Source: Phycisphaerales bacterium (lineage in GTDB: Bacteria; Planctomycetota; Phycisphaerae; Phycisphaerales; SM1A02). From it: a stretch of 64,000 nucleotides of DNA. Made by a program: the position numbers and the translations under genes. The notes under the pieces are model-generated. The model worked only from the letters and a program-made list of their open reading frames with translations. It ran no database searches and was not told the DNA's origin. This document shows, piece by piece, positions 7,664 through 16,655 of this stretch (position 1 is the first letter of the stretch; every line of letters begins with the position of its first letter). The stretch covers positions 1-64,000 of the forward strand of contig JAQWNP010000017.1 in NCBI GenBank assembly GCA_029268515.1, written 5' to 3'.

Positions 7664-7817
7664 TACAAAATTGTTGATGTTCCTCTGCAAGTTCCCTTGG
7701 TGATCTGGTCTGACAGAGCAGAAGACCTTCTGTTGGGTTTTTGGTACCTATCACGGTACCCCCCACAGGAGGAGTTGTTGTGTGGACGTTTGAGAATCAC
7801 TCTGAAAGGGATGGAAT

Positions 7818-8210
7818 ATGAAAAGCCCATGTCTGCTCGTCGCCGCCCTCGCCGTCATGGCATTGGCAACGGGTTGTAGCCAAGAAAAAATGCGTAAAGC
7901 GGCATTTCAGGCGCAGTTGACCAGCGTATGTAGCGAAATTTCTGATGGCGACTTAGCGCAAGCGAAAGGTCATTTAGAAGAAGCCAAAGAGACGGCCCGT
8001 GGTACGAAAGAAAAGCAGAAGGTGCAAAGCCTTCATCAGCTGATCGCTGGTGCCGAAGCATTTATGGATGGCAACGGCCCTCAAGCCAGAAGTGAGTGGT
8101 CTCAGGCCTCTGACCCACTCTTGCGACAAGAAATTCGTAGCCAGGCCCGTGAAGTCGGCATTGATGTGCCACTGATACCTGTATCTGGAAGTCAAGGAGG
8201 TATCCAATGA
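7818..8210 (+). CDS. Lipoprotein, first gene of the ExbBD/sigma cluster
   Basis: A 130-residue lipoprotein with leader LVAALAVMALATGC (Cys20 as the acylated residue). The mature part is helical and charged (LTSVCSEISDGDLAQAKGHL, EEAKETARGT), resembling a short TPR-like helical repeat. Its function is not recognised. It is the first of about twelve same-strand genes with minimal spacing; its stop overlaps the next ATG by 4 bases. AAAGGG lies 7 bases before the start. It could be the outer- or inner-membrane lipoprotein subunit of the energised complex encoded downstream. Confidence 0.7.
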   Translation: MKSPCLLVAALAVMALATGCSQEKMRKAAFQAQLTSVCSEISDGDLAQAKGHLEEAKETARGTKEKQKVQSLHQLIAGAEAFMDGNGPQARSEWSQASDPLLRQEIRSQAREVGIDVPLIPVSGSQGGIQ

Positions 8211-9301
8211 AAAGATCTGAGCGAAAAAAAGATAACAAGTCGCAAGCGAGAAAAGCAATTGTACTCAGTGGTGCCGCGCTTCTTTTGACTTCAATGGCCT
8301 ATGGGCAGAGAGCTCCGGAACCTGGAGAAAATCGCATCGTGCCGGCAATCACTTCAAGCAGCAGCCTGGCCAAACCGCAAGACGCTGATCAGTCAGAACT
8401 TAATGGCTATGACTTCGGTCATGTTGTTGAAACACTTCAAAGCTCAGTGGATCCACTACAACGTGAACTGGATGCGAGTTTTATGGTGTTCATCGATCGA
8501 GTCGATCAAGCCGTCACACTGCTTGATGCTGGACAGACCAGAGAAGCGGTTGCCATGAGCACCGTTGCGATCGAAGGTGTTTTGCAAGTTCGAGATACGG
8601 TGCTTGAGCCGATGTGGGATGGTCAGATCTATCTGACTGAACAGATTTCAAAGGTGCGCAGCCGACTCGCCAGCGCCGTTTCAGCTGGAACGAATCCTGT
8701 TGGTGATGAGTCATCGGCGCATGATCCGGCCACTGAAGCAGTACTTGATGGAATTGCCAAGAGAATTTCACAGGAACAAGATGCACTGCGTCGCAAACGC
8801 CTCGTGGCCCACTATCGCACTGTACGTGATCTGGCGCAGATAAAACGCACTGCCCAGCGAATGAGTCCTGATCAACGCAAGCTTTGGGTTGGTGTGTTGC
8901 GCGTGCTTGAAGAGGCAGCCCTGGCACATCAGCAGGTCTTGATGGGTTCAGAAATACTCTATACGCAGTTTGAATCGACGGCCGGCCATTTGCAGGAGTA
9001 CCTGGTATTGCTTGATACCGTTGATGGCGCTACAGAATTACTTGGTGTGATCAATGGTATTGAAGGTGCTGGCCAGGGAATGACCAGCTTTGCTACCAGC
9101 ATGCAAGAACTGCAGGCTCGTCTTTCAACATTCAACGGCGCTGTCCAAGAGGCATTACAAACCAGCATGTTTGAGCTCGAGGCGAAGGTTGATTCCCTGC
9201 CAATTTATAGCTCGCTGGATGCTGAGATGACTGGAATCGCACCAACACAACTAGATGCAGAATTGGCAGATCGCCTGTCTCGCATTGAAGGAAGTAACTA
9301 A
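8207..9301 (+). CDS. Exported helical protein of the ExbBD/sigma cluster
   Basis: A 364-residue protein with a basic N-terminus (KRSERKKDNKSQARK) and a hydrophobic signal ending in SMAYGQ. The rest is mostly predicted helix with long amphipathic segments (VETLQSSVDPLQRELDASF, ISQEQDALRRKRLVAHYRT, MQELQARLSTFNGAVQEAL), so probably a periplasmic coiled-coil or helical bundle. I recognise no family. AAGGAGG lies 7 bases upstream and the start overlaps the preceding lipoprotein stop. The position, just before a second small exported helical protein and the ExbB-like gene, suggests a periplasmic component. Confidence 0.68.
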   Translation: MKRSERKKDNKSQARKAIVLSGAALLLTSMAYGQRAPEPGENRIVPAITSSSSLAKPQDADQSELNGYDFGHVVETLQSSVDPLQRELDASFMVFIDRVDQAVTLLDAGQTREAVAMSTVAIEGVLQVRDTVLEPMWDGQIYLTEQISKVRSRLASAVSAGTNPVGDESSAHDPATEAVLDGIAKRISQEQDALRRKRLVAHYRTVRDLAQIKRTAQRMSPDQRKLWVGVLRVLEEAALAHQQVLMGSEILYTQFESTAGHLQEYLVLLDTVDGATELLGVINGIEGAGQGMTSFATSMQELQARLSTFNGAVQEALQTSMFELEAKVDSLPIYSSLDAEMTGIAPTQLDAELADRLSRIEGSN

Positions 9302-9332
9302 AGCTGCGCTACTTTGCGCATTGGAGATTGAA

Positions 9333-9794
9333 ATGAAACGTAAAAATCTAACAATCATCGCAGTTGCGTTAGCGAGTCTTTTGAGTATCGGCATCGCCGG
9401 TACTGCCCAGGCTCAAGAAGCAACGCCCTCAATAAAAGCCCAGTTTCATCAACTGACCAGTCAGCGTGATGGAATCTACCGAAAGCTACATGTTCTGGAT
9501 CGAAAAGCAGCTGACCTTATGAAGCAAGGCAAAGAGCCGGTTGAGGTCCATGCTCAGCAAGTGGCACTCCAGGATGAGTTGGATCTGGTTCAACTTCGTT
9601 TAGAAACCATGGCTGTTCGGTATGACATGGTTCTTCGTCCCGTGCCGTCAGCATCAAGCAATCCGGATCAAAAAACAGCTCACGCCGTTAGCCAAGCATT
9701 TGGTCGGGGTGCCTCGCGTACAAAAACCGAACTCACTTCACAGTGCATGGTGATGTTGGGATCAATGGACTTTGGAGCATTCCTGCGCAACTAA
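9333..9794 (+). CDS. Small exported coiled-coil protein
   Basis: A 153-residue protein. The start at 9333 gives a textbook signal peptide (LTIIAVALASLLSIGIAG then TAQAQ) with GGAG upstream; a longer in-frame start at 9255 would bury it. The mature N-terminal half is a heptad-like helix (QLTSQRDGIYRKLHVLDRKA, ALQDELDLVQLRLETM), followed by a Ser/Gly-rich tail ending SMDFGAFLRN. No family recognised. It lies 29 bases before the ExbB-like start, within the same gene run. Confidence 0.65.
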   Translation: MKRKNLTIIAVALASLLSIGIAGTAQAQEATPSIKAQFHQLTSQRDGIYRKLHVLDRKAADLMKQGKEPVEVHAQQVALQDELDLVQLRLETMAVRYDMVLRPVPSASSNPDQKTAHAVSQAFGRGASRTKTELTSQCMVMLGSMDFGAFLRN

Positions 9795-9822
9795 TAGCGC
9801 TAGAAGGAAGGGACTTGCTGGC

Positions 9823-10230
9823 ATGTTGATTCGTTTTATCGAACTTGGTGGACCGCTCATGTGGCCCTTGCTTGCTTGCTCAGTGCTGCTTGGCGGTGTG
9901 ATCGTCGAGCGAGGCTGGACACTCGGTGTGCGATGGTTTCTCCTGCAACAAAAAGTTCCGCAGGCTGACTTATTGGCGCATCGCCGAGTGATGCCTTTCT
10001 TTCGAGATATTCCACCTAGCCTTGGGTTGCTGGGGACAGTCGTTGGGGTGGTTCAGAGCTTTCAACTACTCAATGGGCGCATTAGTGCTGAAGCTGTAGG
10101 TGAGGGCTTGGGCGTTGCCTGTTTGACCACTGTGTTTGGTATTGGAATTGCTATTACGGCATCAATGGTTGGTTATTTCGTTGACTGGGTCGTCCAAGCA
10201 GATGCACCGGTTGCTGTTGTGGAGGCATGA
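9823..10230 (+). CDS. Short ExbB/TolQ/MotA-type proton-channel subunit
   Basis: A 135-residue inner-membrane protein with one hydrophobic segment near residues 8-27 and two more after residue 60. The stretch PPSLGLLGTVVGVVQSFQ and the following GLGVACLTTVFGIGIAITA match the conserved second and third transmembrane helices of ExbB/TolQ, including the Thr-containing pore helix. ExbB proteins are usually well over 200 residues; here the cytoplasmic loop between helices 1 and 2 is cut to roughly 30 residues. ExbB/TolQ homologues form the pentameric stator of proton-driven energy-transducing complexes. The start at 9823 has AAGGAAGGG upstream. It is followed 3 bases later by an ExbD-like gene. Confidence 0.82.
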   Translation: MLIRFIELGGPLMWPLLACSVLLGGVIVERGWTLGVRWFLLQQKVPQADLLAHRRVMPFFRDIPPSLGLLGTVVGVVQSFQLLNGRISAEAVGEGLGVACLTTVFGIGIAITASMVGYFVDWVVQADAPVAVVEA

Positions 10231-10233
10231 AGC

Positions 10234-10623
10234 ATGATCCTCTCACGAAGTTTTGTTGATGTACTTTTTATTCTCTTGTGTGGAATGATTGTCTTGCTTT
10301 CTGAGTCAATTCGTATTGGATCACTCGAGGTTGATCCTGCAGAAATTGGCGGCGGCGGTATTGATCGGCTCACGGCAGACGAGGTCAACTTACTGGTTGT
10401 TGATGATAAGCAACTTGTTGTAGACGATCAGGCCTTTGCCGATGTTTCAGCGTACTTAGAAGCCCAACGTGAAATGCCAGGGGCCTTAATTGTACCCCGG
10501 CATAGTGATGTTTCTCATCACCGCATGATGCGCGTCTATGACATTCTGACACAGGAAGGCGTGGATGTTCGATTTGGTGTTGAGCCAGTCGTGAGTCCGC
10601 AAGCAAGAACGGGAGATCAATGA
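10234..10623 (+). CDS. ExbD/TolR-like subunit
   Basis: A 129-residue single-pass protein. Residues 6-25 form the membrane helix SFVDVLFILLCGMIVLLSES, with the Asp at position 9 where ExbD/TolR carry the proton-accepting Asp. The periplasmic part follows the ExbD pattern: VNLLVVDDKQLVVDD, then ALIVPRHSDVSHHRMMRVYD and a Gly-Val-x-V-x-x-G ending. With the preceding ExbB-like protein it should form a proton-driven two-protein motor. Its start is 3 bases after the ExbB-like stop and its stop overlaps the next gene. Confidence 0.8.
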   Translation: MILSRSFVDVLFILLCGMIVLLSESIRIGSLEVDPAEIGGGGIDRLTADEVNLLVVDDKQLVVDDQAFADVSAYLEAQREMPGALIVPRHSDVSHHRMMRVYDILTQEGVDVRFGVEPVVSPQARTGDQ

Positions 10624-11531
10624 TGTCAAAAAGCGCACTCGTGATTGGTCTCATAATCTCTGTGGCGGTTCATTTTGTTCTGATCTGGCCTTTGGCGAGG
10701 CAGTCTCCGAATAAGACAGAAGAGCCCTTGGCTCGATCAGTGCGTGTTGTTGAGCTACCGGTGGTAGCTGCGGTGCCTGAGCAATCAGAAGTATTGCCTC
10801 AGGAGCAACCCGAGCCAGAAATTGAACCCGAGCCAGAAATTGAACCCGAGCCTCAGCTGGCAAATGAGCCTACCAATAAAGTCATTGAGCAAACATCAAA
10901 GCTGGCGGTCAATCCGGTCCAAGAACCTCCTGTTGAGTTGCCACGGCCGGCACCTCAACCACTTGAGCCCATCGTGTCGGCGCCACCCTCACCAATGCCT
11001 GCTCCATTAGAGCCTGTTGCTGAGGGACTGCGCGCGGCATTTGATGGGCCTGGAGACTTTGCAGGCCATACCGATGTGCCACTGGTACCCGCCTTGTGGA
11101 TTGACTGGGGCTCACAGCAGGAAGCGATCAATGTGTTGTCGGCTGGTGGTATGCAACTGGTTGTTTTGGAATCAGATGAATCTATTCGGCAGGCCGTCAA
11201 TCTGACTGCACGGGGGCCAGCACTGACCGCATGGCGGCCTGGGCGGCAATCAACATTCTCGACGCGTCTTCGAATTGTGGATCATGTCCAGGCCTTTTCG
11301 AGCATTGTGAAATCAATATCACTGGGCCCTGGAAAGCACCTGGCAGTGCTCTTTCCTATGCGTGTGGATCAGCTCGTTGATATGGCTGAGCGGCGGGCGG
11401 CTTTCGATGAGGGTGCTGATATGGAGCAAATTCGCGGTTTTGCGGGGAAGTTCATGATTTCTTCCAACGTAGGTGCAAGTCAATCCTCAAATGGTGTCTC
11501 TTTCATCATCACTCATTTACAACGGAGATAG
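10620..11531 (+). CDS. TonB-like protein with a non-canonical C-terminal domain
   Basis: A 303-residue protein with the TonB/TolA plan at its N-terminus: a short cytoplasmic tail, one signal-anchor helix (ALVIGLIISVAVHFVLIWPL, containing the typical His) and a long Pro/Glu-rich spacer. The spacer includes a tandem EPEIEP repeat encoded by an 18-bp DNA repeat. The C-terminal 140 residues (ALWIDWGSQQEAINVLSAGG, LRIVDHVQAFSSIVKSISLG) do not resemble the TonB C-terminal domain and lack its Y-P motif. It would couple the ExbB/ExbD-like motor to an unknown periplasmic or outer-membrane target. Its start overlaps the ExbD-like stop by 4 bases. Confidence 0.7.
   Translation: MMSKSALVIGLIISVAVHFVLIWPLARQSPNKTEEPLARSVRVVELPVVAAVPEQSEVLPQEQPEPEIEPEPEIEPEPQLANEPTNKVIEQTSKLAVNPVQEPPVELPRPAPQPLEPIVSAPPSPMPAPLEPVAEGLRAAFDGPGDFAGHTDVPLVPALWIDWGSQQEAINVLSAGGMQLVVLESDESIRQAVNLTARGPALTAWRPGRQSTFSTRLRIVDHVQAFSSIVKSISLGPGKHLAVLFPMRVDQLVDMAERRAAFDEGADMEQIRGFAGKFMISSNVGASQSSNGVSFIITHLQRR
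10807..10850 (+). repeat. 18-bp tandem repeat in the TonB-like spacer
   Basis: Unit AACCCGAGCCAGAAATTG at 10807-10824, repeated exactly at 10825-10842, then eight further bases. It encodes the EPEIEP repeat of the Pro/Glu-rich spacer and is a likely site of length variation. Confidence 0.85.
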
Positions 11532-11535
11532 TCGA

Positions 11536-12207
11536 ATGAACTCAGTTAGATCGCTCATTGTCGTGGGAGGCCTCACTGCCGGCGTTATTGGCGGTAGTTG
11601 GGCATGGACTGTTAGTCATGCGGCGCCAACTGATGGCGAGATTGTTGCCAATGGCATTGAACAAACTGTTGCAGGACTCAAACCTGCCGTCGCTTCAAAT
11701 GTCAAAAAAAATAAATCGCTGAGTCTTCCCGCAATGTATGCGGCTGTGCCGTTAAGCCATTCTCATGCGACGGCCAATAGCACACGTGCGCCTGAACCAC
11801 CAAGTAGTTTGTCTACAGATTCTTCTATCGATGTACCCGTCGAAGTTGTGTTACCTGCCGCCGAAGTTACCTTACAGCACACCGAAGTTGATTTAGGACT
11901 TGATGAGATCAATGAAAATGAGTCAAACTCTGCGACTGTGTATACGAGCCCTTCCGAGGAAGAAAATGTCGCCGCAACAGAGATTCAAGAGGACTTGGTA
12001 ACGAATGCAACAGCGTCAGTAGACAAAAAACGCCCCGTTGATTATGGCCGTCTCAATCAACGCTTAATTCAAGTGGCTGATGCACTCGAGCGATTGAATT
12101 TACGTTTGGCAGCGATGGCAGCGAAAGACAATAAAGATCAGGCTGAAGCTGATGCACCGAACGCCTCAACTGTTGCCCCAGATATGGTTGAGTTCGTGGA
12201 GGGATGA
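11536..12207 (+). CDS. Membrane-anchored protein with C-terminal helix
   Basis: A 223-residue protein with an N-terminal anchor or signal (LIVVGGLTAGVIGGSWAWTV). A long Ser/Thr/Glu-rich, probably unstructured middle follows, then a C-terminal helix (RLNQRLIQVADALERLNLRL) before an acidic tail. The start at 11536 is chosen for GGAG 8 bases upstream; the in-frame start at 11473 overlaps the TonB-like gene by 59 bases. No family recognised. Four bases separate it from the TonB-like gene and three from the next. It may be a periplasmic spacer or assembly factor of the same complex. Confidence 0.65.
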   Translation: MNSVRSLIVVGGLTAGVIGGSWAWTVSHAAPTDGEIVANGIEQTVAGLKPAVASNVKKNKSLSLPAMYAAVPLSHSHATANSTRAPEPPSSLSTDSSIDVPVEVVLPAAEVTLQHTEVDLGLDEINENESNSATVYTSPSEEENVAATEIQEDLVTNATASVDKKRPVDYGRLNQRLIQVADALERLNLRLAAMAAKDNKDQAEADAPNASTVAPDMVEFVEG

Positions 12208-12210
12208 GCT

Positions 12211-12468
12211 ATGATTTTTCGTTTCATTAGACGGAGCTTGATGACACTTCTTCTTGTTGCAGCGGTCGCACTATATTCTCTGGGTGTCCTTCGCTTGGAA
12301 AGTGCAAATCCTGCCATCCGCTGGATTGATCATGGCTCAGGCTGGTTGACCCGTATGGTTGTAGCACAGGGCAATGGTGGCCCTGGAGATGCCATTCATG
12401 CAGCTGCTGATTGGCTTGAGGGATCTTCTTTTGATGCCAGCGAAACCAACGAGGATCAGGAGGGTTGA
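12211..12468 (+). CDS. Small single-pass membrane protein
   Basis: An 85-residue protein with a basic start (FRFIRRSL), one transmembrane helix (LMTLLLVAAVALYSLGVLRL) and a polar tail with acidic end. GGAGGGA lies just upstream, overlapping the previous stop region. No family recognised. It closes the membrane-protein part of the cluster; 188 bases without a convincing gene follow before the sigma-factor start. Confidence 0.6.
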   Translation: MIFRFIRRSLMTLLLVAAVALYSLGVLRLESANPAIRWIDHGSGWLTRMVVAQGNGGPGDAIHAAADWLEGSSFDASETNEDQEG

Positions 12469-12656
12469 TACACTCTGCCTGCCATTCAGACCAGCTGAGG
12501 GCGATGGCTCATCTGGGCAATGATGACTGCTCCTTAGCGGGCTCAGCTCCAGAGGCCAATGGGCGTTTTGTGGGTAAGCAGCGTTCTGCTTCTCAACGAA
12601 CTCCCTCAGCGATCCTGGTACTGCGGATGAGTCAGCTGGGTAAAGATAGAGGTTGC

Positions 12657-13508
12657 ATGACAACAGGCTTCGCTTTTGAACAGATCCTAAGAGAAGCCAG
12701 AGACCGCTGGCCGGCAGTCTGCTGGGATCAAGGCGATTTTCGATCGCATTTGATCCAAGAGCATGAAGATGGCCCACCAAAATTTGCAGTGGATCTTTAT
12801 TTGGCGGGTGCTGCCGGTTTCCGTGTCGAAGAAGCTTGGGAAGCAATCGAAACTGAAATGGGTACTGATGCACGGCGCATTCTGTCAAGTCAACCAATAG
12901 CAGATTGCACAGTGGAAGATCTTTGGTCGGAAGCGCTGGTCAAACTTATGGCAAATGATGATCAGCGAGCACTCTTGCCGAGTGGTCGGTCGGTTGCAAA
13001 AATCATTCGCTACCGAGGCCGTATTCGTTTGCTGTTCTATATTGTTGTGATTGCAAAAAGGCATGCCATCAATCGAAATAGGGTGAGCCGTCGCCAGCAA
13101 TCACTCACGCGCATGCAGGATGACAACACAGTGGATATGCCAGTTATGTCTCAAGAAATTCCACCAGGTGATCTTGCCGCGTCATCTGAAATTGCTCAAG
13201 GGTTACGAGATAAAATTAGAATTGCTATTGAATCGTTAACGACAGAGCAGCGATTCCTCGTCGCAATGGTCTATCGCAATGGTATGAAACAAAAAGAAGC
13301 TGGTGCGATGCTTGGTTTCTCTGAATTCAAAACATCAAGGCACATTAAAGATGCAATGGAGCGTTTGCGAGAACGCCTCATCGCCGTGTACGAGAATCAG
13401 TGGACACCAAGTCTTGAAGCAGCTTGGGTTGGTTGCTGGGCAGAATCTTGGGCTGACGTGCAAGTTCCTTCACCAGGTATGTCATCTGACATAGAGAAGA
13501 AGGAATAG
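12657..13508 (+). CDS. ECF-type sigma-70 family sigma factor
   Basis: A 283-residue protein. Residues about 75-140 look like sigma region 2 (VEDLWSEALVKLM, then IIRYRGRIRLLFYIVVIAKR and a basic stretch). Residues about 185-245 are a region 4 helix-turn-helix (IESLTTEQRFLVAMVYRNGM, KQKEAGAMLGFSEFKTSRHI). The N-terminal FAVDLYLAGAAG segment resembles the N-terminus of ECF factors seen in myxobacteria and planctomycetes. The ATG at 12657 is preferred over a TTG at 12465, whose Shine-Dalgarno is only one base away and whose extra residues look non-coding. It probably directs RNA polymerase to this cluster or to an envelope regulon. The anti-sigma-like gene follows after 5 bases. Confidence 0.82.
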   Translation: MTTGFAFEQILREARDRWPAVCWDQGDFRSHLIQEHEDGPPKFAVDLYLAGAAGFRVEEAWEAIETEMGTDARRILSSQPIADCTVEDLWSEALVKLMANDDQRALLPSGRSVAKIIRYRGRIRLLFYIVVIAKRHAINRNRVSRRQQSLTRMQDDNTVDMPVMSQEIPPGDLAASSEIAQGLRDKIRIAIESLTTEQRFLVAMVYRNGMKQKEAGAMLGFSEFKTSRHIKDAMERLRERLIAVYENQWTPSLEAAWVGCWAESWADVQVPSPGMSSDIEKKE

Positions 13509-13513
13509 ACCTT

Positions 13514-14155
13514 ATGACAAATATGCCACCCAACGAACTGCCAGCCAACCGTCGTGAGATGATCGCAATGATGCAGCAGGCGCTTACAGGTTCTGTTGCA
13601 GGGCGAGCTTCTATTGACGACGAGCAACTCGTGATGCTGGCGACTGGTCGTGTCGATGAAATTCCACAGCCGCAGCGAGAGAGCCTTCTTTTGGCGGTCT
13701 CGGAAGATCACGATCTTGCTGATTTGCTCAGTCAGCTCGCTGCCCTTGAGCTTGAGCCTGACATGATCTTCCGTCCCAAAAATGTTCATCAAGAGGTGAC
13801 TCGGCATCGATTGCATATGGCTCGTTTCAGCTCTTTTGTGCGTATGGCTTGGGCGGCATCAATCATCTTGCTGGTGGGTTTGCTTGCCTGGCGCATTGGC
13901 GAATCAGGAGCAGTGAAGGCAACAGATTCCATACCAGGCAAAATTCAGCCATCAGATCTGACAGTCAGTCAGAGCAACTGGGGTGTATCTGGCCAGACAG
14001 AACCTGCATCAGGGCTACTCGTCGGGCTTGATATAGCAATGCTCGTGGTCTTGGTGATTTGCCTCGTGCTCGCAGTCGCCGCATTTTGGCCATGGGGCAG
14101 AAGCCTACAATCCGGGCTAAGCCGAAACTCGAGTGAGGGCCATCACGGTGATTAG
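13514..14155 (+). CDS. Anti-sigma-like membrane protein
   Basis: A 213-residue protein. The cytoplasmic N-terminus (DDEQLVMLATGRVDEIPQPQ, AVSEDHDLADLLSQLAALE) follows the layout of anti-sigma domains: a short acidic helix, a Gly turn and a helix of repeated Leu. It lacks the H-x-x-x-C-x-x-C zinc motif. Two transmembrane helices follow (MAWAASIILLVGLLAWRI and IAMLVVLVICLVLAVAAFWP) with a roughly 60-residue loop between. Position directly after the sigma gene, the N-terminal pattern and the membrane anchor support a role in sequestering that sigma factor. This is inferred and untested. It overlaps the next gene by 23 bases. Confidence 0.62.
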   Translation: MTNMPPNELPANRREMIAMMQQALTGSVAGRASIDDEQLVMLATGRVDEIPQPQRESLLLAVSEDHDLADLLSQLAALELEPDMIFRPKNVHQEVTRHRLHMARFSSFVRMAWAASIILLVGLLAWRIGESGAVKATDSIPGKIQPSDLTVSQSNWGVSGQTEPASGLLVGLDIAMLVVLVICLVLAVAAFWPWGRSLQSGLSRNSSEGHHGD

Positions 14156-14642
14156 TGCGCAGTTTCACCAACAATATAAACGCCACGCTCCGCGCGCGAC
14201 TAGAAACAAGCTCTCTCGAGCGCGCGTGCTTGGTCTTGCTGCCGTTCTCATCACAGTGATGGTGGCCATGTCACGATCTACGTACGGCGATACCAGTTTG
14301 ATGGACTTCCGGCAAGATGAGAGCTGGAAGGGTATCACTGGCATTGGTGGACAGGCGATCTGGTTGGCAAGGACTGGCATGCCAGGTCGAGCCATGGCCA
14401 ATTCAGAGGGGTTGCTTGAGGCGACGCTGGCCCAATGGGAGGGACCGTCTCAGTCAGCCAGCCTGGCTTTGGATGATGCGCCGAAGTCGACCCTACTGGC
14501 CACTCAAATGGCCAGCCCAGGCGATGCTCGCAGCCGCCTCGCTCAGCCCATGCTTGTTGGGCTGGGCCTAGGAATATTGATCCTGTTGATTGGTTGGGGG
14601 TTGACCAGGCCACGAGATGTGGCCCATCGGGGTGCCTTCTGA
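14133..14642 (+). CDS. Membrane protein of unknown function
   Basis: A 169-residue protein beginning at GTG 14133, inside the end of the anti-sigma-like gene. A basic N-terminus precedes a transmembrane helix (VLGLAAVLITVMVAMS). A polar region of about 90 residues with two Met/Ala-rich helices follows, then a second transmembrane helix (LVGLGLGILILLIGWGLT) near the C-terminus. No family recognised. The 23-base overlap suggests coupling to the anti-sigma-like gene; a role in sensing or in the envelope complex is possible but unsupported. Confidence 0.55.
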   Translation: MRAITVISAQFHQQYKRHAPRATRNKLSRARVLGLAAVLITVMVAMSRSTYGDTSLMDFRQDESWKGITGIGGQAIWLARTGMPGRAMANSEGLLEATLAQWEGPSQSASLALDDAPKSTLLATQMASPGDARSRLAQPMLVGLGLGILILLIGWGLTRPRDVAHRGAF

Positions 14643-14716
14643 GACTTTTTGTCTGCACGTGGTAGGGTGGTGGTACCAGTTCAATTCTGTGTGAGCATTG
14701 GTTGTTCATCTAGACA

Positions 14717-15091
14717 TTGACCGACGATGATCTTATGAAGAATCTTGACCAACCAACTCGCGCCCGTCTGAAACGACAGCGAATCAGAGCCACCAGTACC
14801 TGGGCGGTTGGTCTTGCATTGACGTTGGCTGGAGTGATTCTCTTGTGTAGTGGCATCGTTCGAACGTGGTATATCGGATTGCCTATTCTGGTCGTTGGAA
14901 TTTTACTACTGCTTGCTGGCGTGGCGATGCAACGACGTTATCAAGAGACCGTTGTTGAGGCGCTTGGTCTTGATGTTGAGGCGTATCGTCGATATATGGC
15001 AGGTGATCCAGAAGCACTCGAAGAGATTCGTTCTGAATCACAACTGTCGGATAAGGATCGAGATTCAGACAGTACAGAGGTCAATCAGTAA
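14717..15091 (+). CDS. Small two-helix membrane protein
   Basis: A 124-residue protein with two adjacent transmembrane helices (WAVGLALTLAGVILLCSGIV and IGLPILVVGILLLLAGVAMQ) and an acidic C-terminal tail (residues about 80-124). The start is uncertain: TTG 14717 and ATG 14735 are in frame and neither has a clear ribosome-binding site. Its 3' end overlaps the convergent metallophosphoesterase gene by 11 bases. It is the last same-strand gene after the sigma/anti-sigma pair, 74 bases from its neighbour, so membership of the cluster is likely but not certain. Confidence 0.6.
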   Translation: MTDDDLMKNLDQPTRARLKRQRIRATSTWAVGLALTLAGVILLCSGIVRTWYIGLPILVVGILLLLAGVAMQRRYQETVVEALGLDVEAYRRYMAGDPEALEEIRSESQLSDKDRDSDSTEVNQ

Positions 15092-16655
15092 TTCGCACGA
15101 TGCGTGAGACTTGGTCTTCTTGTCCATACCGATCAATTGCTTTCACGATCACCGCATGAGCACCAGTTGCTAGATTGTCAGGAAGTGGCGCCACCCAGAT
15201 ATGATTTGTTTGTACTGGCTTAGGTAGCGGGCGTCCTCCTGGCAGCTCGTTGTCTTGTTCTCGCCCATGTGAAGCAACAAATGTTGGATCAGTTTGCCTT
15301 GTTTGTTTCATTTGAATAGGTGTGCCGCTTTTGCCAATCTGCATGGTTACCGTTGTGTTTTCATCGCCGGCATATACGTTTGCGATCACCATCGTTTCAG
15401 AACTTTCCTCGCGTGTGATGGCGCTGGGCAATGCGACGTGTAATTGCATTCCTGCGGGCCTGCGCGCCGCCTTGAATCGCATTTTGTAAGCATTTTGATC
15501 AAAAGTAATAATAGAGTAGCCATTCGGATTGCCATCAGCTTGAGTCGCGTGTGGAATGCCATGTTCATCTTTATGTCCACGCCACCAAGAACCACTGGCA
15601 GTGCCATGAACAAGATGGTGGTGGCCAATGTTGGTCGTCGGCACACCAGTCGGGTCTAGGGTGAAGTGATCTTGCCAATGGCGATGTGCAGAGAGACTTA
15701 GCGTATGTGGGTAGTCAGCCAAGAGACTCAATAAATCAGCTTTGTCTTGCACATCAAAAAGAGGGATATGCATCAGCACGACGACGAGTGTCTCATGCGG
15801 AACATACTGTAGATCTGACTTCACAAACTGGAGTGTGGTTGGGCCAAATGCGCCGTGGTAATTTGGTTTGGAATCCTTGCCGTTGTACATGACATCATCA
15901 AGCACAATGAAATGTACAGGGCCCCAATTGAAGCTATAGGTCGCTGGGCCATAGATTCGCTCCCAGGTCTCATCAGATAATTCATCGCTATCAACGTCGT
16001 AGTTGATGTCATGGTTGCCCAGTACGTTGTACCAAGGTATGCCAATCGTTCCCATGATCTGATTGACCATCGGTAAAAGATTTAAGTTATCGAAGACGAT
16101 GTCGCCAAGTGAGGTACCAAATGCAGCCTTGGTGCCAATGATCTCAGCGATGACATCATGAGCCAGGTAGTTTACTTCTGCTTCGTTACGAGGCTGGGGA
16201 TCACCCATGACAATGATTGAGAATTGATCTGCTTCCACGTGCCTCGTAAGCGGAAAATCAAGAGACGCAGGTGGCGCGCCAGTCGGTTCAACACCGGGGT
16301 AAGTAAGTTGCTTTGGCGATCCCTCAGGCTTATGTATGTAATAGAAAAAAGGCAGGCCATTGGGCTTGACGGGGGTCATCCAGTCGCGTGGCTTAATCAC
16401 AAAGACAATTCCACTTTGGTCTAAGGTCAGTTCATATTTTCCAGCACTGTCAGTTTTCAGGATGTTCTGCCCGTCACTGACGCCAACGCCAGGTAGGCCC
16501 GGCTCGCCGGGATCCCTCTGCTGGTTGCCATTGAGGTCGTTGAAAACCATGCCTTGAATCTTCACGGTTTCAGTCGCATGGAGATTTTGGCTCAAGGTGA
16601 GCTCAGAAATGGCCATGAGAAAGACAGTCACAAGAAAGGGCACTTTAATCGACAT
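15081..16655 (-). CDS. Exported calcineurin-type metallophosphoesterase
   Basis: A 524-residue secreted enzyme: signal peptide, then an N-terminal beta domain (GMVFNDLNGNQQRDPGEPGL, PGVGVSDG) of the MetallophosN/SdrD-B-like kind. The binuclear-metal core follows with GDPQ, GTSLGDIVFDN, LGNHD, LMHIPL and SAHRHW, and a C-terminal beta domain begins near residue 370. All five metal-binding blocks of the calcineurin-like family are present, so it should be an active phosphoesterase. The substrate (nucleotide, phospholipid or other phosphomonoester or diester) is not determinable. AGGAG sits 7 bases before the ATG. It is divergent from the gene at 16824 and convergent with the gene at 14717. Confidence 0.88.
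   Translation of the reverse strand: MSIKVPFLVTVFLMAISELTLSQNLHATETVKIQGMVFNDLNGNQQRDPGEPGLPGVGVSDGQNILKTDSAGKYELTLDQSGIVFVIKPRDWMTPVKPNGLPFFYYIHKPEGSPKQLTYPGVEPTGAPPASLDFPLTRHVEADQFSIIVMGDPQPRNEAEVNYLAHDVIAEIIGTKAAFGTSLGDIVFDNLNLLPMVNQIMGTIGIPWYNVLGNHDINYDVDSDELSDETWERIYGPATYSFNWGPVHFIVLDDVMYNGKDSKPNYHGAFGPTTLQFVKSDLQYVPHETLVVVLMHIPLFDVQDKADLLSLLADYPHTLSLSAHRHWQDHFTLDPTGVPTTNIGHHHLVHGTASGSWWRGHKDEHGIPHATQADGNPNGYSIITFDQNAYKMRFKAARRPAGMQLHVALPSAITREESSETMVIANVYAGDENTTVTMQIGKSGTPIQMKQTRQTDPTFVASHGREQDNELPGGRPLPKPVQTNHIWVAPLPDNLATGAHAVIVKAIDRYGQEDQVSRIVRITD

Follow-up and report, generated by a model that had tools for sequence, protein, structure and literature searches.

A conserved Phycisphaerae operon encoding an ExbB/ExbD-type motor and an ECF-type sigma factor, a candidate envelope-spanning force machine

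Introduction

Which machine is powered by an ExbB/ExbD-type motor that is encoded with neither a TonB-dependent receptor nor a Tol-Pal set? The question is raised by a run of twelve genes (g1–g12) at positions 7818–15091 of a 64,000-nucleotide stretch of DNA from a Phycisphaerales bacterium (the window; it lies on contig C17, one of the 20 contigs that make up a 3.2 Mb genome). Motors of the ExbBD, TolQR, and MotAB types have few known outputs, and a 2025 survey states that further ones await discovery (PMC12204202); the present cluster is a compact and testable further case. An original prediction, made from this DNA without database searches, held that the run encodes a self-regulated, proton-driven envelope machine, a proposal that the sequence comparisons reported here support overall. 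With moderate confidence, we read the operon as encoding a force machine that spans the envelope, is driven by protons, and has a regulon under its own sigma factor; its likely task is the maintenance of the outer membrane and peptidoglycan. Conservation of the genes, the motor residues, a motor-binding histidine, and the linkage between promoter and sigma factor are well supported at the sequence level, and the strongest of the new findings is the predicted autoregulatory promoter that ties the sigma factor g9 to the operon. The features of the locus are as follows.

7686..7713, +, predicted extracytoplasmic function (ECF)-type promoter of the operon, TGCAAG-N15-GGTCTGA, with 9/10 core bases; kept 5′ of g1
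7818..8210, +, g1, short helical lipoprotein with a lipobox and Cys20; 23/24 loci, the remaining one cut
8207..9301, +, g2, exported helical protein and search hallmark, hence in 24/24 loci
9333..9794, +, g3, exported helical protein; 23/24 loci, the remaining one cut
9823..10230, +, g4, minimal ExbB/TolQ/MotA-family channel subunit of 135 amino acids (aa)
10234..10623, +, g5, ExbD/TolR-family subunit with an invariant Asp9
10620..11531, +, g6, TonB-like transducer: transmembrane (TM) helix with SxxxH, Pro-rich linker, and unmatched C-terminal domain (11049–11528)
11536..12207, +, g7, putative tether: TM segment, linker, and C-terminal helix
12211..12468, +, g8, small membrane protein; homologue in G001 only, of three relatives compared
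12657..13508, +, g9, ECF-type sigma factor
13459..13486, +, candidate further sigma-type promoter, TGCAAG-N15-TGTC, within the 3′ end of g9 and 27 bp before g10
13514..14155, +, g10, anti-sigma-like membrane protein (by position and topology) with two hydrophobic segments
14133..14642, +, g11, membrane protein
14717..15091, +, g12, short product with a pair of hydrophobic segments; putative member, judged within the window only

Organization and conservation of the operon

All twelve + strand open reading frames (ORFs) of the original prediction were recovered. Neighboring genes mostly overlap or lie at most 5 bases apart; the close spacing claimed for the run thus holds at most junctions but not at g2–g3 (31 bp), g3–g4 (28 bp), g11–g12 (74 bp), and, if the sigma factor starts at ATG 12657, g8–g9 (188 bp). 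The nine products other than g4, g5, and g9 lack a convincing family match in Pfam and NCBIfam. No clear terminator was found after g12, and scans of the operon for sigma-70-type promoters and terminators stayed at chance level (6 vs a mean of 5.8, and 9 vs 6.9, respectively), so that they do not fix the end of the operon. The last 11 bases of g12 (15081–15091) overlap a convergent phosphoesterase-like gene (15081–16655).

With the g2 profile as the hallmark for locus finding, g2 was detected in 21 of the 400 genomes sampled at order level (one match marginal), in 11 of 397 at class level, and in 3 of 392 at phylum level, these three being the window's own genome and two others from its order. 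GTDB genome contigs yielded 11 named loci carrying g2, all from Planctomycetota by title, the nearest named relative being an uncultured Phycisphaerae bacterium (93% over g2). Strain ZRK32, a cultured relative, has a copy that lacks the sigma gene. The compared set comprises 24 loci (designated L) from 22 genomes (designated G) that without exception belong to the class of the window; it already included ten of the 11 named loci, and the eleventh, L084, was kept as a held-out check. A partial g2 match in G146 (E 9.7e-4) was treated as chance, and partial second g2 matches (L107) were dropped. The g2 alignment holds 23 of 25 matches, with L100 and the second L107 copy excluded, so that L100 is not in the g2 tree.

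Across distant genomes the genes follow the common order g1-g2-g3-g4-g5-g6-g7; the original prediction had named conserved order as support and scattering as its refutation, and scattering was not observed. By iterated profiles, g4, g5, and g6 were each found in 20/24 loci in the same order. The misses of g1 and g3 are contig ends, as are those of g4, g5, and g6 in L096 and of g6 in L063. Neither profiles nor tblastn located g4 or g5 between g3 and g6 of L105, where the sister locus L101 has both, and this gap is either an assembly error or a deletion. The held-out L084, a 25th locus, carries g1–g6, g9, and g10. Wide recurrence among g8–g12 is limited to g9 and g10; g11, like g8, has a blast match in G001 only, of the three relatives compared, and at the g11 position relatives carry a protein of 327–421 aa with a signal and a C-terminal TM segment. 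A chance cluster was set aside because the gene order is conserved across genomes.

Motor subunits and force transducer

The short ExbB-like protein foreseen for g4 belongs to the MotA/ExbB family (PF01618, E 1.7e-12), with TolQ as its best solved-structure match. Thr72 is invariant in 20/20 aligned sequences and Thr103 in 19/20 (Ser in L103), and the two align with Thr145 and Thr178 of TolQ, respectively. The ExbD-like g5 lies barely over the family cut-off (PF02472, 25.9 vs 25.4) and matches TolR weakly in a PDB search (E 0.23); its Asp9 is kept in all 16 rows of the ExbD alignment (16 of 20, four run-on rows excluded). The two Thr positions of g4 and Asp9 of g5 correspond to the proton path of ExbB/TolQ and ExbD/TolR. 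Their conservation suggests that g4 and g5 use protons, in agreement with the predicted proton drive. The window holds a single ExbD gene, and the extra g5-profile matches in relatives overlap g4/g5 in other frames; such alternate-frame and run-on matches of the drifting profile were dropped.

TonB-likeness of g6, as originally proposed, stands for the TM helix and the Pro-rich linker but goes no further, the NCBIfam TonB profile giving E 0.013, far below its cut-off. In the g6 alignment, which holds 19 of 20 rows (L105 excluded), His18 is invariant, and the position four residues earlier is Ser or Ala in all 19. This SxxxH pattern is the start of the S-H-L-S motor-binding motif, which the survey describes for TolA and TonB (PMC12204202). 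A Pro/Glu-rich linker then leads to a C-terminal domain of ~150 residues, the confident model of which reached a predicted local distance difference test score (pLDDT) of 87 and a predicted template modeling score (pTM) of 0.79 from 19 sequences. With this domain, Foldseek returned nothing at E ≤ 0.001, a sequence search of the PDB gave nothing at E ≤ 1, and no Pfam family was common to two of the 19 members; the best VIA-align hit among 997 chains had a Z-score of 2.4 over 58 residues. The two fold searches show neither a difference in fold nor novelty. Of 397 class genomes, nine encode the domain and 11 have g2 (the two samples of 397 were drawn alike); each of the nine is also a g2 genome, and the two g2 genomes without the domain are those of the motor-less genus described below.

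Sigma factor and predicted promoter

The ECF-type assignment of g9 was borne out by the NCBI sigma70-ECF superfamily profile, whose cut-off is passed over residues 73–242 (TIGR02937, 44.4 vs 42.9); TIGR03001 is matched more weakly, and Pfam alone recognizes sigma70 region 4 only. Both g9 and g10 lie within the operon at 12/24 loci, so that the regulatory pair proposed to sit in the same run is indeed there but is an optional part of the system. At the truncated loci L103, L096, and L063 the contig ends before g9, yet the genomes carry g9 elsewhere: in G216 it lies in L102, and in G082 (profile E 1e-84) and G155 (1e-83) it was confirmed, together with g10, at a site apart from the cluster. On the g2 tree (23 rows, L103 counted as sigma-positive), presence of the sigma factor requires 3 label changes, compared with a mean of 7.8 for shuffled labels and a value as low in 0/500 shuffles; the sigma module therefore clusters on the tree, the deep order of which is unsure because of long branches.

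A motif, TGCAAG-N15-CGTC, is conserved 5′ of g1, and its CGTC-type −10 element is ECF-like. The window copy lies 104 bp before g1. A score of at least 9/10 was reached in 11/11 loci where the operon includes g9 and the DNA before g1 is available (in L101 it is cut off) and in 3/3 truncated loci, with which L103 was counted in this tally, whereas 9/9 loci without g9 scored at most 7/10. The motif was discovered in the same loci that were first scored, with other spacers, shuffled sequences, and the sigma-less loci as controls; for L097, L100, L102, and L109, the g1 start of which is unsure, the upstream window was set by hand. The held-out L084, which lies near genus g36 by its neighbors and took no part in motif discovery, has an exact copy ~46 bp before g1. 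With one sequence per genus, the motif was common to all 8 genera, as against a maximum of 5 in 60 shuffled sets. Exact copies numbered 17 in 270,639 bases of g9-positive genomes (mean 0.85 and maximum 2 in 20 shuffles) and 0 in 162,033 bases of sigma-less loci, and other spacers (10–14 and 16–21) gave 0 to 3. Genome-wide in four genomes, 7 exact copies were found vs 0 for the reversed pattern, four of the 7 sites being already known. At a looser score of at least 8/10, a match with a spacer of 18 is reached by 7/12 loci. A conserved sigma-type promoter 5′ of g1 thus lends sequence support to the self-regulation that had been proposed.

Copies before g10 are less regular. The window copy (9/10) ends 27 bp upstream of g10 and that of G001 26 bp upstream, and exact copies stand 30–31 bp before g10 in G082 and G155; the window copy may reflect conserved coding sequence. 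Most other loci have no such copy: at six of the twelve where g10 adjoins g9, the best score before g10 is only 6 or 7, and the 9/10 matches near g10 in genus g36 fall in coding sequence and are not claimed as promoters.

Wider sigma regulon in relatives

Among the 17 exact copies, 16 are followed within ~80 bp by a gene that belongs to the system or by a linked envelope gene, and the remaining one (L063) points toward a nearby contig end. The motif precedes genes for an S8 subtilase fused to DUF4384 plus CsgG/FlgO in L111 (9/10 in L096), an LPP20 gene in L132, a 775-aa LpoB/DUF6844-like gene in L135 (LpoB 22.5 vs a cut-off of 22.3; DUF6844 below cut-off), DUF1425 genes in L094 and L095 (9/10 in L056 and L084), and also anti-sigma genes in relatives. 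Pfam matches bear out the subtilase in L056, L104, and L111; subtilase-like ORFs found by blast, one a 117-aa fragment, stand beside the cluster in 10/24 loci, none of them sigma-less. DUF1425 and LpoB-type genes are near the cluster in two genera. In some relatives, the orphan families DUF1425, DUF6844, LpoB-like, LPP20, and DUF4384 are thereby linked with a source of power. Between the subtilase/CsgG and LPP20 genes of L111 (427–2361, cluster orientation) lies a gene for a caspase (Peptidase_C14) fused to an FGE-sulfatase domain.

Proposed mechanism

From the families and conserved residues, a force path from g4/g5 through g6 to g1, g2, and g3 may be proposed. In the inner membrane, g4 and g5 would form an ExbB/ExbD-type motor, the edge of which would be bound by the TonB-like helix of g6. 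The proline-rich arm of g6 would cross the periplasm, and its C-terminal domain would pull on or remodel outer-membrane or cell-wall partners, namely the lipoprotein g1 and the exported helical proteins g2 and g3, while g7 would serve as an additional tether. A signal from the envelope would free the sigma factor g9 from the membrane protein g10, whereupon g9 would direct transcription of the operon from TGCAAG-N15-CGTC; in relatives it would also transcribe the genes for subtilase/CsgG, LPP20, and LpoB/DUF1425-type lipoproteins. The likely job would be outer-membrane and peptidoglycan upkeep under envelope stress, comparable to that of Tol-Pal. In this scheme we infer that protons are used, that force is transferred, and that g10 is an anti-sigma factor, as well as the target and the role in stress. 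The unmatched transducer domain, the predicted promoter, and the defined gene list may make stimulus and target findable through one sigma factor.

Several observations weigh against this reading. The anti-sigma-like label of g10 is consistent with its position and two hydrophobic segments, but g10 has no anti-sigma match in Pfam or NCBIfam. Nine loci are without the sigma pair, which places regulation outside the core. Among the genomes of these loci, G021 has a weak match to g9 elsewhere and G049 none; the ninth locus belongs to G591, where g9 is present at the other locus, and G131, G084, G079, G067, G174, and G070 were not searched. L108 and L109, from one genus (G049 and G070), carry g1-g2-g3 and a g7-like gene with no ExbB, ExbD, or g6, and g1–g3 may accordingly have a motor-free role. 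Only the Ser/Ala and His of S-H-L-S are general in g6, and the full set at the spacing of TonB is found in the window g6 alone. There is no LPP20 gene in the window's genome, nor a further credible site for the narrower pattern TGCAAG-N15-SGTCTGA (copies with CGTCA or CGTCC were not sought): the single other exact match lies inside a gene in antisense, and five one-mismatch matches, vs 3 for the reversed pattern, look like chance. The wider regulon is thus claimed for relatives and not for the window's genome. As a separate observation, the motor-free set of L108 and L109 is preceded by an esterase-like gene.

Relation to known motor-driven systems

A diverged Tol-Pal (or CpoB-like) system that does the same job with drifted sequences would explain TolQ being the best solved-structure match of g4, the company of a lipoprotein and helical exported partners, and the presence, in some relatives, of LpoB-type genes that lie close to the cluster or follow its promoter motif; coupling of CpoB, LpoB, and Tol is known. 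Like Tol-Pal, the window operon combines a TolQR-like motor with a transducer, a lipoprotein, and exported helical proteins. It differs, however, in the unmatched transducer domain and in sigma control. TolB_N (PF04052) was found in 0/13 genomes tested, with positive controls, and the twelve products include no OmpA/Pal match (Pal was not searched for elsewhere in the genome). This origin is therefore considered unlikely.

It is less likely still that the motor serves surface motility or adhesion by driving outer-membrane ring-like proteins related to FlgO, FlgP, and FlgT. The AglRQS-Glt machinery does drive gliding, and CsgG/FlgO, LPP20 (the FlgP family), and FlgT_N domains occur in co-regulated or adjacent genes of relatives. 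No such gene is called beside the window operon, however, LPP20 is present in 2/12 genomes tested, and the CsgG/FlgO, LPP20, and FlgT_N families are also found in non-flagellar lipoproteins.

A divergent Ton system energizing uptake through TonB-dependent outer-membrane receptors shares with the window system the ExbB/ExbD-type motor and a transducer with a Pro-rich arm and a motor-binding SxxxH helix containing the conserved His. The window system adds g1, g2, g3, and g7, a short 135-aa ExbB, and, in half of the loci, a sigma factor. We regard a Ton system as very improbable, because the plug domain (PF07715) was found in 0/5 genomes with the system, the whole genome of the window included, whereas E. 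coli, Caulobacter, and Bacteroides served as positive controls, and because TonB_C matched neither g6 nor the 19 aligned C-terminal domains. The absence of TonB-dependent receptor and Tol-Pal genes that the original prediction had noted around the run thus extends, for the plug and TolB domains, to the whole genome, and the unknown proteins matched no Ton or Tol-Pal part in the profile searches made. A Zorya-like anti-phage or antagonism system using the motor is likewise very improbable: the sporadic spread (21/400 order genomes) and the subtilase and caspase genes near some loci are set against a fixed operon with sigma control and no PADLOC match at E ≤ 0.001, Zorya components included, for ten of the twelve proteins.

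The envelope-spanning force machine remains to be placed among the motors of its own genome, in which five other MotA/ExbB loci exceed the cut-off. By ORF reading, L001 is MotAB, L002 is ExbB-ExbD-ExbD after a larger exported protein, L003 (C1) and L004 (C2) are two vWA-type/TolQ/TolR/TolR sets, and L005 has an ExbB with no ExbD within the 3.3 kb examined. The survey describes vWA-domain force transducers of Planctomycetota–Verrucomicrobiota–Chlamydiota (PVC) bacteria, with a proton-motive-force (PMF) motor, a TonB-like helix, a linker, and a non-TonB globular domain (PMC12204202). L003 and L004 resemble that class as described there, and the g1–g12 cluster would therefore be an additional machine. 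The window system has the same four elements, but the vWA class pairs two tolR-like genes where the window has one ExbD gene. A vWA transducer was set aside as a reading of g6, whose domain shows no detectable relation to the two vWA-type proteins of its own genome (hhalign probability 0.2%) and no VWA Pfam match in its 19 members.

More tentatively, and with less confidence than in the force machine as such, we raise the possibility of a third class of proton-driven transducers beside TolA/TonB and vWA. Such a class would have a new C-terminal fold, and an ECF regulon would couple the motor to outer-membrane lipoproteins of the CsgG/FlgO, FlgT, LPP20, and LpoB/DUF1425 families and to a subtilase; it might be built under stress and work on the outer membrane or cell wall. 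Known pairs of ECF sigma and membrane anti-sigma factors likewise have the sigma gene beside a membrane-protein gene and an autoregulatory promoter with a CGTC-type −10 element; the window pair differs in that its anti-sigma candidate has no recognized domain and in being tied to a PMF motor. No published description of this gene set was found in the literature on planctomycete ExbB/ExbD/TonB, Tol-Pal, and related families.

Exported proteins and tether

The model of g2 has a pLDDT of 68, and Foldseek returned generic helical and coiled-coil proteins only, none at E ≤ 0.001; no Pfam family is common to two of the 23 g2 members. The conserved g7 product joins a TM segment and a linker to a C-terminal helix motif; genes for such TM-linker proteins, usually with a C-terminal helix of the type YxxLxxxLxxxxxALExxNxxL, follow g6 in the loci read. 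L100 (9653–10570) encodes a g7-type protein with a TPR-like N-terminal part and the g7 C-terminal helix motif, and L055 (4281–5432) an additional, longer lipoprotein ending in this motif; both look as if the g7 tail had been fused to other carriers. A second g1–g3 pair lies downstream in one genus (L094, 17160–17995; L095, 16333–17219, both in cluster orientation; and L133, 1050–1897), preceded by the sigma-type motif at 10/10 in L133 and 9/10 in L095.

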